DNA of 64,000 bases, taken from assembly GCF_021735935.1 (NCBI RefSeq), contig NZ_WMDZ01000001.1, forward strand, positions 2,914,001-2,978,000. The letters run 5' to 3'. This document shows, piece after piece, positions 11,379 to 16,014 of this stretch (position 1 is its first letter; each line of letters begins with the position of its first letter). The notes under the pieces were generated by a model, which did no database searches, was not told where the DNA came from, and saw nothing but the letters and a program-made list of their open reading frames with translations. The translations under genes and the position numbers were made by a program. Source of the DNA: Sulfitobacter sp. M39 (lineage in GTDB: Bacteria; Pseudomonadota; Alphaproteobacteria; Rhodobacterales; Rhodobacteraceae).

Positions 11379-11534
11379 GCGCCCAACTTACGCGCTGGTG
11401 TCGGCAATAAAAATGCCAACTTCCAAATGGTCTTAAATCCAACGCGGCCCCCACAGCCGGATGACCCCGCCCGACGACTTGCCCCGCCCCGCGCCGCCGC
11501 CTATAACGCCAAAAATAACGTGGGGTCCCCCGTC

Positions 11535-12482
11535 ATGAGTTTCGCACACCGCCATCTTCTGGGCATTGAACACCTGTCCCAGGATGACATCACCACCCTG
11601 CTTGATCTGGCCGACAGCTATGCCGATCTGAACCGCCAGCCCCATAAACACAGCGACGCGCTGAGCGGGCTGACACAGATCAATATGTTCTTCGAAAACT
11701 CCACCCGGACGCAGGCGAGCTTCGAGATCGCGGGCAAGCGGTTGGGTGCGGATGTGATGAATATGGCGATGCAGGCGTCCTCGATCAAAAAGGGCGAAAC
11801 CCTGATTGATACGGCGATGACGCTGAACGCCATGCACCCCGATCTGCTGGTGGTCCGCCATCCGCAATCCGGTGCCGTCGATCTGCTGGCGCAGAAGGTG
11901 AACTGCGCGGTGCTCAATGCGGGTGACGGGCGACATGAACACCCTACGCAAGCACTGCTGGACGCGCTGACGATCCGCCGCGCCAAGGGCCGCTTGCATC
12001 GCCTGTCCATCGCCATCTGCGGCGACATTGCCCATAGTCGCGTGGCACGGTCCAACATCATGCTGCTTGGCAAGATGGAGAACCGCATCCGCCTTATCGC
12101 GCCGCCGACGCTGATGCCAGCGCAAATCGGTGAATTCGGCGTCGAAGTCTTCGATGACATGGAAGAAGGACTGAAAGACGTTGATGTGGTGATGATGCTC
12201 CGCTTACAAAAAGAACGCATGGATGGCGGCTTTATCCCCAGCGAACGCGAGTATTATCACAGATATGGGCTGGACGCCGAAAAGCTGGCCCATGCCAAGC
12301 CTGATGCCATCGTGATGCACCCCGGCCCGATGAACCGCGGCGTAGAGATCGACGGAACGCTCGCCGATGACATCAACCGCAGCGTCATTCAGGATCAGGT
12401 AGAGATGGGCGTCGCAGTGCGCATGGCCGCGATGGACCTGCTGGCGCGCAACCTTGTCGACAGCCGCAAGGCCACCGCATGA
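11535..12482 (+). CDS. pyrB: Aspartate carbamoyltransferase catalytic chain
   Basis: 315 residues from ATG 11535 ([14 protein letters not shown]); an upstream in-frame start at 11427 would add a low-complexity Pro/Ala-rich stretch and is rejected. Catalyses carbamoyl phosphate + L-aspartate to carbamoyl aspartate. Carbamoyl-phosphate loop [12 protein letters not shown] (around residue 53), the KKGE loop, HPTQALLD and MHPGPMNRG are all present. No pyrI regulatory-chain gene follows. Instead it is coupled by ATGA to a chain of small membrane proteins and then to a defective dihydroorotase homologue, as in pyrBC'-type operons. Confidence 0.96.
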
Positions 12483-12919
12483 CCGCAGCCCCGCCCGAAG
12501 AACAGGACCTGCTGCACTGGCGTATCTCGCCGCGGGCGTTCTTTTGGCGGTGCGTGGCGCTGGCGGTGCTGACCATGTTGTTCACGCTGCCCTTGCTCAT
12601 CTGGCTGGACCCGTTCACGTGGCTGCTGGTCTCGGTTCTGATTGCGGTGTTCTACATGTGGGTGTTTGAGGAATTCCAGATCTGGTACAGCAACCGCAAT
12701 ACCGTCTGGCGGCTGACCAACCGTGCGCTTTACATCAACGCCCCCGATACGGCAGAGCCGCTGGTCCTGCCGTTGACCGACATCCGGTCGATCGGGAAAC
12801 TGTCCTTGTGGTCGATCAGTCTTGGCCTGCCTGACGGCCAGCGGATCACCTTGCCGCTGGTGCCGAACCGGGCAGAGACCAAGGCCCGCCTTGCCCAAGC
12901 GATAGAGGCTGCATCATGA
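12479..12919 (+). CDS. Unknown two-TM protein with PH-like C-terminal domain, in pyrB operon
   Basis: 146 residues, product not firmly recognised. Two predicted TM helices (roughly residues 18-38 and 43-62) are followed by a soluble stretch with the pattern [11 protein letters not shown] and a following IxxI segment, reminiscent of bacterial pleckstrin-homology-like (bPH) domains. The start overlaps the pyrB stop as ATGA, and its own stop overlaps the next gene, so it is made in step with PyrB. Function unknown; membrane attachment of the pyrimidine enzymes is one possibility. Confidence 0.75.
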
Positions 12920-13431
12920 GCGATCGTTTTTGGCAAGACCTGCTTGAACCCGAGGAAGAGCTGCTCTGGACAGGTCGCCCCCGCCCCAAGCTGTCGCTGC
13001 GCAATTTTCAGCTGTTCGGCCCCTTTGTCGGGGCCATTGGCACCGTGATCGCGGGGGCATTTGTGCTGCGGGGTAACACCCTGCCCGTGTCACAATCGGT
13101 CGTGGTGGCGGTGATCGTCGCACTGGTGGCGCTGTCGTTGCTGCGCGGGATGAAACGGCTGACCGACCTGCGCCGCACCCGCTATGCGCTGACCAACCAC
13201 CGCGCCCTGTTTTTCAAACTGACCCGCGACGGCACCCGTGCCAAAGCTTTCCCCCGCAGCGCCGAGACGAAACCCGATCTGCGCCCGACCAGCCCGCCGT
13301 CTGTCTTCTTTATCCGGCATGAACAGCCGGACAATCCGGCACGCGCCGCGCATCTAGGATTTGAATATGTCGAAGACAGCGACAGATTAAGTGCATTGAT
13401 GGTAACCCCGTACAAAGGTGCAACACGATGA
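12916..13431 (+). CDS. Unknown two-TM PH-like protein, in pyrB operon
   Basis: 171 residues. Opens with EEELLWTGRPRPKLSL, has two hydrophobic segments (about 36-55 and 62-78), then RRTRYALTNHRALFF, the common YxLTNxR pattern of bacterial PH-like proteins. After that comes a less ordered tail with FFIRHEQPDNPARAAHLGFEYV. Resembles its upstream neighbour in plan, so the pair may be ancient duplicates or hetero-partners. Overlaps both neighbours by 4 nt (ATGA). No enzymatic motif seen. Confidence 0.75.
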   Translation: MSDRFWQDLLEPEEELLWTGRPRPKLSLRNFQLFGPFVGAIGTVIAGAFVLRGNTLPVSQSVVVAVIVALVALSLLRGMKRLTDLRRTRYALTNHRALFFKLTRDGTRAKAFPRSAETKPDLRPTSPPSVFFIRHEQPDNPARAAHLGFEYVEDSDRLSALMVTPYKGATR

Positions 13432-13964
13432 CACAACTCAAAATCCCCAAGGGCGAGATCGGCCAGATCCGCCTGTTTGCCGTGAACCGCCCGATTGACG
13501 AATTGGCCCGCGACCTGCGCAACGACAGTAAAGAGGCGCTGATTGCTGATCTGCTGGGCCGCCCTATGCCCGAAGGCGCGGCCGAACTGTTCCCCGTGTC
13601 TGATCTGACTGGCGTAGGTCTCGCCTCCTATCTGGGTGATGGCTATGCGGTGCCGCGTGAACAGATCAGCCGCGACCGTGCGCGATTGGATGCGCTGGAC
13701 GGCTATGTATTGCTGCTGTTCTCCTCGGCCTTTGACGGGCAAGAAGCGACGCTGGACCTTGGCCCCGAACTGACGATGATCGGCACCTATGGCGAGGCGC
13801 AGCCCGATATGTCCGTCACCCCGCTTGAGGCTGAATCCGCACAACCCTACACCGGTGCCGCGGATATGACCCCGAAATCCCCGCCCAAGGGCGGTGCCGG
13901 CGGTATGATCCTGCTTTTGGCGGTGATCGTGCTGATCGGTCTTATTCTCTGGTGGCTGCTGTGA
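13428..13964 (+). CDS. Unknown tail-anchored protein, in pyrB operon
   Basis: 178 residues, mostly soluble with one very hydrophobic C-terminal helix (MILLLAVIVLIGLILWWLL, about 160-178), preceded by a Pro/Gly/Lys linker. That arrangement predicts a cytosolic domain anchored by its tail. The N-terminal 125 residues show no catalytic motif I recognise. Overlaps the upstream gene (ATGA), and its TGA overlaps the GTG of the 34-codon ORF that follows. Likely acts with the other small membrane proteins of this operon. Confidence 0.75.
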   Translation: MTQLKIPKGEIGQIRLFAVNRPIDELARDLRNDSKEALIADLLGRPMPEGAAELFPVSDLTGVGLASYLGDGYAVPREQISRDRARLDALDGYVLLLFSSAFDGQEATLDLGPELTMIGTYGEAQPDMSVTPLEAESAQPYTGAADMTPKSPPKGGAGGMILLLAVIVLIGLILWWLL

Positions 13965-14065
13965 AAGAACCCAAACCCGATCCCAAGATGTCCGGCCGTA
14001 TCGCCATGATTGCCCTGCTTGTCGCCTTTGGCGTGGCGGGCATGATGGTGTGGATCGGGTCCTGA
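13961..14065 (+). CDS. Small single-TM protein (34 aa), in pyrB operon
   Basis: GTG start at 13961 overlapping the previous stop (GTGA); TGA at 14063-14065. The product starts MKEPKPDPKMSGRIAM and continues into one TM helix ending MMVWIGS. The charged, proline-rich N-terminus and single helix resemble small membrane-complex subunits. It is supported by coupling, spacing and frame and by the lack of any other use for this stretch, but there is no homology evidence from the sequence alone. A 54-bp gap then leads to the dihydroorotase-like gene. Confidence 0.6.
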   Translation: MKEPKPDPKMSGRIAMIALLVAFGVAGMMVWIGS

Positions 14066-14119: not shown

Positions 14120-15400
14120 ATGACCCTGCATTTTATCAACGCGCAGCTGATCGACCCCGAAGCAGGCACCGTCACCCGCGGCACGCTTCGGGTCGAGGAT
14201 GGCAAGATCGCGGCGGTAATGGACGATACCGCACCGATCCCCGGGGATGCGCAGGTCGTGGATTGCCGAGGGAAATACCTGGCCCCCGGTATCGTCGATC
14301 TGGGCGTCAAAGTCTGTGAACCCGGCGAGCGGCACAAGGAAAGCTTCCGCTCTGCAGGGTTGGCAGCGGCTGCAGGTGGGGTCACGACAATGGTCACCCG
14401 CCCCGACACCGACCCCACCATCGACAGCCCCGAAGTGCTTGAATTCGTTACCCGCCGTGCGAACGAGGCCGCCCCGGTCAACGTCGTGCCCATGGCTGCG
14501 CTGACCAAGGGCCGCGAAGGCCGCGAGATGACGGAGATCGGGTTTCTCATGGATGCCGGTGCCGTGGGCTTTACCGATTGTGACCGCGTGGTGACGGATA
14601 CCAAAGTGTTCTCCCGCGCGCTGACCTATGCCCGTAGCATTGGCGCGCTTGTCATCGCTCACCCGCAGGAACCCATCCTGAGCAAGGGGGCGGCGGTGAC
14701 CTCTGGTAAATTCGCGTCGCTGCGCGGGCTGCCTGCCGTCTCGCCCATGGCTGAACGCATGGGGCTGGACCGCGACATCGCCCTGATCGAAATGACCGGT
14801 GCCCGCTATCACGCCGACCAGATCACAACCGCCCGCGCCCTGCCCGCGCTGGAGCGTGCAAAGAAGAACGGCCTGGATATCACCGCCGGGGTCGGCATCC
14901 ACCACCTGACGCTGAACGCGCTGGATGTGGCCGACTACCGCACCTTCTTCAAGCTCAAGCCCCCCCTGCGCGACGAAGAGGATCGCATCGCCGTGGTAGA
15001 GGCCGTGGCCTCTGGCCTGATCGATATCATCTGCTCCATGCACACCCCGCAGGACGAGGAATCCAAACGGCTCCCGTTCGAGGAAGCCGCATCGGGGGCC
15101 GTCGCATTGGAAACCCTGCTGCCCGCAGCCTTGCGACTGGTCCACTCCGAGATGATCGATATCGCCACGTTGTGGCGTGCGCTGTCGTTCAACCCTGCAA
15201 AACGTCTGGGGTTGCCCGGGGGGCGGATGTCCGTCGGTGCCCCCGCCGATCTGGTGCTGTTTGATGATGGCGCGCCTTTCGTGATGGACCGCGAGGTTTT
15301 GCGGTCGAAATCGCGCAACACCCCCTTTGACGGGATGCGCATGCAAGGTAAGGTCTTGGAAACTTACGTTTCCGGCACCTGCATCTATAAGGCCTCCTGA
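14120..15400 (+). CDS. pyrC: Dihydroorotase homologue with degenerate metal site (PyrC'/PyrX-type pseudo-DHOase)
   Basis: 426 residues, full-length class I dihydroorotase fold. The zinc-binding HxH of active enzymes is replaced by Gly62-Val-Lys64 in DLGVKVCEPG. The downstream ligand His in the QHxST-type motif is Gln (YHADQITTA, about residue 233), and the catalytic Asp of TDHAPH is gone (ICSMHTPQ, about residue 303). The rest of the fold is well kept (PGIVD, TNP-like TDPTID, NPPLR-like KPPLRDEEDR, SRNTP), so it is under selection but should not hydrolyse dihydroorotate. By analogy with Pseudomonas pyrBC', it probably supports aspartate carbamoyltransferase assembly, and an active DHOase must be encoded elsewhere. 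Confidence 0.88.
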   Translation: MTLHFINAQLIDPEAGTVTRGTLRVEDGKIAAVMDDTAPIPGDAQVVDCRGKYLAPGIVDLGVKVCEPGERHKESFRSAGLAAAAGGVTTMVTRPDTDPTIDSPEVLEFVTRRANEAAPVNVVPMAALTKGREGREMTEIGFLMDAGAVGFTDCDRVVTDTKVFSRALTYARSIGALVIAHPQEPILSKGAAVTSGKFASLRGLPAVSPMAERMGLDRDIALIEMTGARYHADQITTARALPALERAKKNGLDITAGVGIHHLTLNALDVADYRTFFKLKPPLRDEEDRIAVVEAVASGLIDIICSMHTPQDEESKRLPFEEAASGAVALETLLPAALRLVHSEMIDIATLWRALSFNPAKRLGLPGGRMSVGAPADLVLFDDGAPFVMDREVLRSKSRNTPFDGMRMQGKVLETYVSGTCIYKAS

Positions 15401-15402
15401 AT

Positions 15403-16014
15403 ATGCCCCTGATCGACTCTTCCCTATTCGTGCTCCTGTTCTGGGCCGTTGCGGCCTATCTGATCGGGTCGGTCCCCTTTGGCATGGTGCTGACGCGCGC
15501 AATGAATCTGGGCGATCTGCGCAGCATCGGGTCGGGCAATATCGGTGCCACCAATGTGCTGCGCACAGGTTCCAAAAAAGCGGCGGCGCTGACGTTGATC
15601 CTGGATGGGGGCAAAGGGGCCGTTGCGGTGCTGCTGGCACGGCTCTTCGCGGGCGAGGACGCCGCCCAAATTGCCGCATTGGCCGCGATGCTGGGCCATT
15701 GCTATCCGGTCTGGCTGGGGTTCAAGGGCGGCAAGGGTGTCGCGACATTCCTTGGTGTGTTGCTGGCCCTTGCATGGCCCGTCGGCCTGGCCTGCTGTCT
15801 GGCGTGGCTGATCGCCATGGCCGTCACCCGCACCTCGTCCATCGGGGGGCTGGCATCCGCCGCGGCATCGACCTTCTTTATGATCTTCCTGGGCTATGGC
15901 AGCGCCTTGTTTCTGGGCATCCTGCTGACCCTGCTGGTGTTCTGGCGCCACCGCGAGAACATCAAACGTATCCGCGCGGGTACAGAACCCAAAATTGGTG
16001 CCAAAAAAGACTGA
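15403..16014 (+). CDS. plsY: Glycerol-3-phosphate acyltransferase PlsY
   Basis: 203 residues, five or so TM helices. Transfers an acyl group from acyl-phosphate to glycerol-3-phosphate, the first step of phospholipid synthesis. Conserved loops are all visible: YLIGSVPFGMVL, GSGNIGATNVLRTG, LDGGKGAVAV and GFKGGKGVATFLG, with HREN near the C-terminus. It starts 2 nt after the pseudo-DHOase stop and is thus the last recognised enzyme of the pyrimidine operon, linking it to membrane lipid synthesis. Confidence 0.95.
   Translation: MPLIDSSLFVLLFWAVAAYLIGSVPFGMVLTRAMNLGDLRSIGSGNIGATNVLRTGSKKAAALTLILDGGKGAVAVLLARLFAGEDAAQIAALAAMLGHCYPVWLGFKGGKGVATFLGVLLALAWPVGLACCLAWLIAMAVTRTSSIGGLASAAASTFFMIFLGYGSALFLGILLTLLVFWRHRENIKRIRAGTEPKIGAKKD

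Follow-up and report, generated by a model that had tools for sequence, protein, structure and literature searches.

Within the window, the 64,000-nucleotide stretch of Sulfitobacter sp. M39 DNA that we analysed, there is an open reading frame at 14120..15400 of the forward strand, which begins with ATG and encodes 426 residues without internal stops. The protein is matched by TIGR00857 over residues 18–425 with 335 bits (cut-off 279), and its closest solved relatives by sequence, the Aquifex dihydroorotase (DHOase) chains, align with residues 6–424 (E 1.2e-76), making it a full-length class I DHOase homologue and bearing out the assignment of the earlier note on this DNA. NF006558 (PRK09059), the best-scoring NCBIfam dihydroorotase equivalog, gives 513.7 bits, below its cut-off of 645. 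As five of the six metal-site residues are lost, we name the gene pyrC′ (pyrX) and its product a putative pseudo-dihydroorotase. The expectation that databases would label it dihydroorotase holds for its close relatives in public records, but one 99% identical record is named only 'amidohydrolase family protein'.

Upstream on the same strand lies pyrB (11535..12482), encoding the 315-residue catalytic chain of aspartate carbamoyltransferase (NF002032, 413 bits, cut-off 263); its start codon was picked by homology, the longest ORF beginning at 11427. PyrB contains STRT, HPTQ, RVARS and LRLQ, which we take to be aspartate carbamoyltransferase motifs. The ~1.64 kb between pyrB and pyrC′ hold three small ORFs joined by ATGA overlaps and a possible fourth, all on the forward strand. 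Specifically, ORF A (12479..12919, 146 aa) overlaps the pyrB stop and looks membrane-bound by eye, ORF B (12916..13431, 171 aa) follows, and ORF C (13428..13964, 178 aa) has a hydrophobic C-terminus by eye, while a possible hydrophobic ORF of 34 codons (13961..14065) has a GTG start overlapping the ORF C stop. The earlier note placed pyrC′ in step with pyrB, which is correct as to same-strand linkage, but the two genes do not abut. Directly 3′ of pyrC′ is plsY (15403..16014, forward strand; TIGR00023, 181 bits, cut-off 137), encoding glycerol-3-phosphate acyltransferase.

The small ORFs seem characteristic of the family to which the Sulfitobacter protein belongs. Counting a homologue anywhere in the locus at E 1e-4, the 69 family loci with long flanks contain a match to pyrB in 68, plsY in 69, ORF C in 58, ORF B in 15 and ORF A in 11; the ORF C homologues are 33–66% identical among the matches listed, and a motif scan gives a reading similar to the 34-codon ORF in 20 of the 69. 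Across the class Alphaproteobacteria, plsY is matched in 71 of 80 loci and ORF C in only 3. The gap to pyrB is mostly under ~110 bases in linked loci class-wide and 980 to 1707 bases in the three family members among 79 of these loci, so that both the distribution of ORF C and the gap lengths make the small ORFs look family-specific. Their Pfam matches are at chance level only (E 0.2–0.34). One scan of the DNA gave no promoter-like sites and 7 terminator-like sites, the latter being common by chance (mean 3.7 in shuffles), and one of these, at 13925–13941 of the forward strand, falls near the 3′ end of ORF C and so before pyrC′.

We compared active-site residues by alignment with the Aquifex DHOase, using the numbering of PMC3880350. 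The part of that report available to us describes a single catalytic zinc (the alpha site) held by H61, H63 and D153, with D305 next nearest, and assigns H180 and H232 to a beta site, where alanine substitution costs no significant activity. In the Sulfitobacter protein, the six positions H61, H63, D153, H180, H232 and D305 read G, K, C, H, Q and M, leaving one of the six ligands and none of the three alpha-site ligands. In particular, Gly62-Val63-Lys64 (14303..14311) replaces His61-x-His63, Cys154 (14579..14581) replaces Asp153, Gln234 (14819..14821) replaces His232 within YHADQITTA, and Met307 (15038..15040) replaces Asp305 within ICSMHTPQ, where Aquifex has TDHAP; His181 (14660..14662), the counterpart of the beta-site His180, is the sole ligand kept (all on the forward strand). 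Four further pocket residues, presumably at substrate positions, are also replaced (R65 by C66, N95 by D96, N278 by K280 and H309 by Q311). The first reading of the DNA had quoted its three motifs exactly and had rightly listed the losses at H61, H63, H232 and D305; it overlooked D153, R65, N95, N278 and H309, and its statement that the metal-binding residues are lacking applies to five of the six, H180 being kept. Because the beta-site histidines are dispensable in Aquifex, as far as the accessible text of PMC3880350 goes, the alpha site is the telling one: the His-to-Gln change that had been pointed out is present as Gln234 but alone would not be diagnostic, and what is decisive is that every alpha-site ligand has gone along with Asp305. 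With G62, K64 and C154 at the alpha site, the protein does not have the residues of, and would probably not act as, an active class I dihydroorotase.

The replacements are shared by the whole family. From 139 sequences of at least 65% identity, we kept 85 with <90% mutual identity, the M39 protein included. None of the 85 retains H61, H63, D153, H232 or D305 and every one retains H180, so the losses are no lone sequencing error. The substitutes are nearly fixed: glycine at position 62 in 85, lysine at 64 in 84 (glutamine in one), cysteine at 154 in 79 (glycine in 5, alanine in 1, aspartate in none), glutamine at 234 in 84 (asparagine in 1) and methionine at 307 in 82 (phenylalanine in 3, aspartate in none). 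The gene is under purifying selection, with dN/dS of 0.057 against one relative (L016) and of 0.057–0.174 against seven, dS exceeding 1 in six of the seven pairs, and all 36 genomes sampled from the genus contain a match to PyrC′.

Among the 85 family sequences, conservation at the ten pocket sites does not significantly exceed that at other sites (p 0.088), and 71 degenerate copies from elsewhere in the class show no excess conservation of these sites (p 0.44). In 53 unlinked DHOases of active type, the pocket sites are the most conserved sites (p 1.2e-6), although these controls were chosen from 60 by ligand string, so that six of the ten sites were fixed by choice; the four remaining sites (R65, N95, N278 and H309) show the same residue in all 53. 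Release from catalytic constraint should leave just such a pattern in the sequences.

According to the earlier note, the absence of any other pyrC from the genome would have spoken against its reading, and that is not what we find. A class II PyrC of 347 residues is encoded elsewhere in the genome (C1:2405309-2406325; TIGR00856, 421 bits, cut-off 293), with intact-looking HLHLRD and GTDSAPH motifs. The only other class I match above 30 bits in the genome (L010) was considered as a second DHOase and rejected, since by eye it reads as a dihydropyrimidinase or hydantoinase beside a carbamoylase-like gene. A PyrI regulatory chain, as expected of a class B aspartate transcarbamoylase (ATCase; PyrB-PyrI), was not found: PF01948 has 0 matches in this genome and was positive in 7 of 14 control genomes.

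A survey of the class extends these observations. A match at 1e-60 is present in 202 of 289 class genomes, of which we examined 80, mainly one per family. The linked copy is degenerate in 75 and intact, with at least 5 of 6 positions kept, in 5; among the degenerate copies, 60 keep no alpha-site ligand and 15 keep one. In the 79 genomes other than that of M39, 77 of 79 linked loci have a same-strand pyrB upstream, the two others being one at a contig end (L192) and one with no pyrB within 3 kb upstream (L233). Another DHOase is found in 73 of the 75 genomes with a degenerate linked copy versus 1 of the 5 with an intact copy (Fisher p 4.6e-5, a test that overstates independence because the tree shows the five intact copies to be closely related). 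It was counted by class II PyrC score in 22 of the 73 (21 over the cut-off and one, G301, under it) and by an unlinked class I copy in 51, the latter carrying Q/HxH, H, H and D together with the pocket Arg and Asn. The two genomes with a degenerate copy and no counted second DHOase are G152 and G153.

To place the degenerate copies, we built a careful tree from 57 chosen rows with the eight pocket columns removed, including 36 degenerate alphaproteobacterial rows and 10 of the 22 degenerate rows from outside the class. Degenerate copies of the class make up a single clade (84/93), next to which stand its five intact copies (90/69), while the Pseudomonas-type degenerate copies form a separate clade (100/100). 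Between the two degenerate clades lie intact enzymes of non-alphaproteobacterial origin, which join the alphaproteobacterial side (99/94). This topology favours two separate losses rather than one; holding all degenerate rows together gives p-AU 0.178, so that a single origin is not rejected, and we do not claim a single loss shared with Pseudomonas, from which the careful tree separates the alphaproteobacterial clade. In a quick tree of 121 rows, the five intact copies of the class had fallen within the degenerate group (98*), an arrangement that would call for several losses or a regain; that placement is not reproduced in the careful tree, and neither scenario is claimed. The Pseudomonas-type clade includes L370, which shares up to 90% identity with proteins named Pseudomonas and 38% with the Sulfitobacter PyrC′.

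The PyrC′/pDHO of the Pseudomonas class A2 aspartate transcarbamoylase was reportedly described by Schurr in 1995. The portions of the later literature available to us treat it as established that Pseudomonas has a class A2 ATCase containing a DHOase chain that is inactive (PMC7053772; also PMC4581275), and state that the P. aeruginosa pDHO is inactive and required for ATCase activity (PMC7053772). The Sulfitobacter protein resembles it, on that partial account, in being a class I DHOase chain without zinc ligands and, as we infer here, a partner of PyrB. Specifically, L370 and the Sulfitobacter protein share a retained His180 and a Gln in place of His232, whereas the lost positions differ (NAGHQH in L370 versus GKCHQM) and the two lie in separate clades of the tree. 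In S. meliloti, smc01361 is annotated as a dihydroorotase and adjoins pyrB, its disruption leads to pyrimidine auxotrophy, an essential pyrC lies elsewhere in Sinorhizobium, and the name PyrX was proposed, as described in the accessible part of PMC5929573. This likeness, which rests on the published description rather than on an alignment, comprises an alphaproteobacterial host, the dihydroorotase annotation, linkage to pyrB and a separate PyrC; unlike smc01361 as described there, the Sulfitobacter family has small ORFs between pyrB and pyrC′ and a class II enzyme as the other DHOase. No alphaproteobacterial case besides smc01361 was noticed in the literature searched, outside which subscription papers mostly fall. 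With class A2 published for Pseudomonas and a homologue in Sinorhizobium, to the extent that these sources are accessible, the Sulfitobacter protein would join an already known kind.

Two more distant systems provide further comparisons. The DHOase–ATCase of Aquifex aeolicus (class A1; 3d6n, PMC3880350) shares full-length homology with the Sulfitobacter chain and supplies, with its DHOase/ATCase dodecamer, a model for the complex; unlike the Sulfitobacter protein, the Aquifex DHOase keeps all six positions and is described in the available text as active in the complex (PMC3880350). The pseudo-DHOase domain of fungal Ura2 likewise has no zinc ligands and has ATCase in the same protein, according to the part of PMC7053772 at hand, but it is a domain of a fused multifunctional protein, and the two are set side by side by description only.

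Taken together, the gene very probably encodes a pseudo-DHOase of PyrC′/PyrX type through which PyrB is built into an aspartate transcarbamoylase of class A2. The earlier proposal of a Pseudomonas-like pyrB-pyrC′ arrangement gains support from the class II PyrC, from the failure to find PyrI and from the 38% identity to L370. The class I DHOase chain has been kept at full length while its zinc and substrate sites were lost, and with these sites gone, interconversion of carbamoyl aspartate and dihydroorotate should not be expected. In the proposed mechanism, the PyrC′ chains would bridge PyrB trimers into the dodecamer of a class A2 enzyme and would activate or stabilise PyrB, while the unlinked class II PyrC would probably carry out the DHOase step. 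Inactivity, binding to PyrB and the stoichiometry of the complex are proposals, and the scaffold mechanism is suggested by homology, by gene context and by the published relatives. Points that weigh against this reading are the separation of pyrC′ from pyrB, the terminator-like site between them, the reportedly active paralogue of PMC2770081 and three genomes of another family in which a degenerate copy is the only DHOase seen.

The near fixation of the substitutes G, K, C, Q and M is compatible with uses of the pocket other than simple abandonment. Residual DHOase activity, or another cyclic amidohydrolase activity, at an altered or metal-free site appears very unlikely to us: it would agree with the retention of His180 in 85 of 85 sequences and with a third PyrC paralogue without zinc residues, which is stated to have DHOase activity in the part of PMC2770081 available to us, meaning that absent ligands are no proof of inactivity; against it, the protein has lost every alpha-site ligand together with Asp305 and four more pocket residues, conservation of the pocket does not significantly exceed that of the remaining protein, and a class II PyrC of intact appearance is encoded in the genome. 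The dead pocket might instead have been rebuilt as a regulatory or ligand site, for instance for nucleotides, that controls PyrB. This is compatible with a scaffold role, and PyrI, which could regulate, was not found in the genome; yet we regard such rebuilding as highly improbable, because the pocket is no better conserved than the rest of the chain to a significant degree and because in P. aeruginosa the nucleotide effect is ascribed to instability of the complex, not to allostery (PMC7053772, as far as its text was accessible). A repurposed pocket is not claimed, since the ten-site comparison among the family sequences is not significant. That PyrC′ is merely what remains of a former PyrC, now decaying and serving no present function, fits the loss of catalytic residues and the presence of an unlinked PyrC, but hardly merits belief given the low dN/dS against seven relatives (0.057–0.174, with dS >1 in six pairs), the absence of stops, its retention near pyrB in 77 of 79 class loci, its presence throughout the sampled genomes of the genus and the auxotrophic phenotype in Sinorhizobium described in the available part of PMC5929573.

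The reading of residual catalysis has its basis in three genomes of another alphaproteobacterial family (f117), namely G153, which belongs to the 80 counted genomes, and G236 and G307, which lie outside them, where a degenerate pyrB-type copy is the only DHOase copy seen. PF01979 at E 1e-5 gives 9 matches in G153, 5 in G236 and 6 in G307; 18 of these 20 were read by eye and included no other DHOase, and the remaining two (L382 and L411, E ~1e-81) are taken for urease by score. The TIGR00856 search in this family covered G153. It is conceivable, though rather unlikely, that loss of the alpha site is not always fatal, that the copy in these genomes works and that the Sulfitobacter protein stands at the far end of a graded decay; if so, the copy in this family would perhaps work on the beta site or on another centre. 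These linked copies have no His-x-His, but unlike the Sulfitobacter protein they keep H180, H232 and D305, which weighs against carrying residual activity over to PyrC′ of Sulfitobacter.

Under the preferred reading of PyrC′ as a probable scaffold for PyrB, the database label probably gives the wrong activity, the 'dihydroorotase' more likely being a structural partner of PyrB. With degenerate linked copies in 75 of the 80 sampled genomes, automated pathway reconstruction can take the wrong gene for PyrC. Together, copies in the intact, half-degenerate and fully degenerate state constitute a natural series for the change from enzyme to scaffold. Among the 60 unlinked class I copies (L217, L267–L326), the ligand string is QHGHHD in 51, with Gln for the first His, and HHGHHD in 2. 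The unlinked DHOase of G152 (L326), from a 1.4 Mb genome, has an internal gap extending across HxH to the substrate-Arg region.
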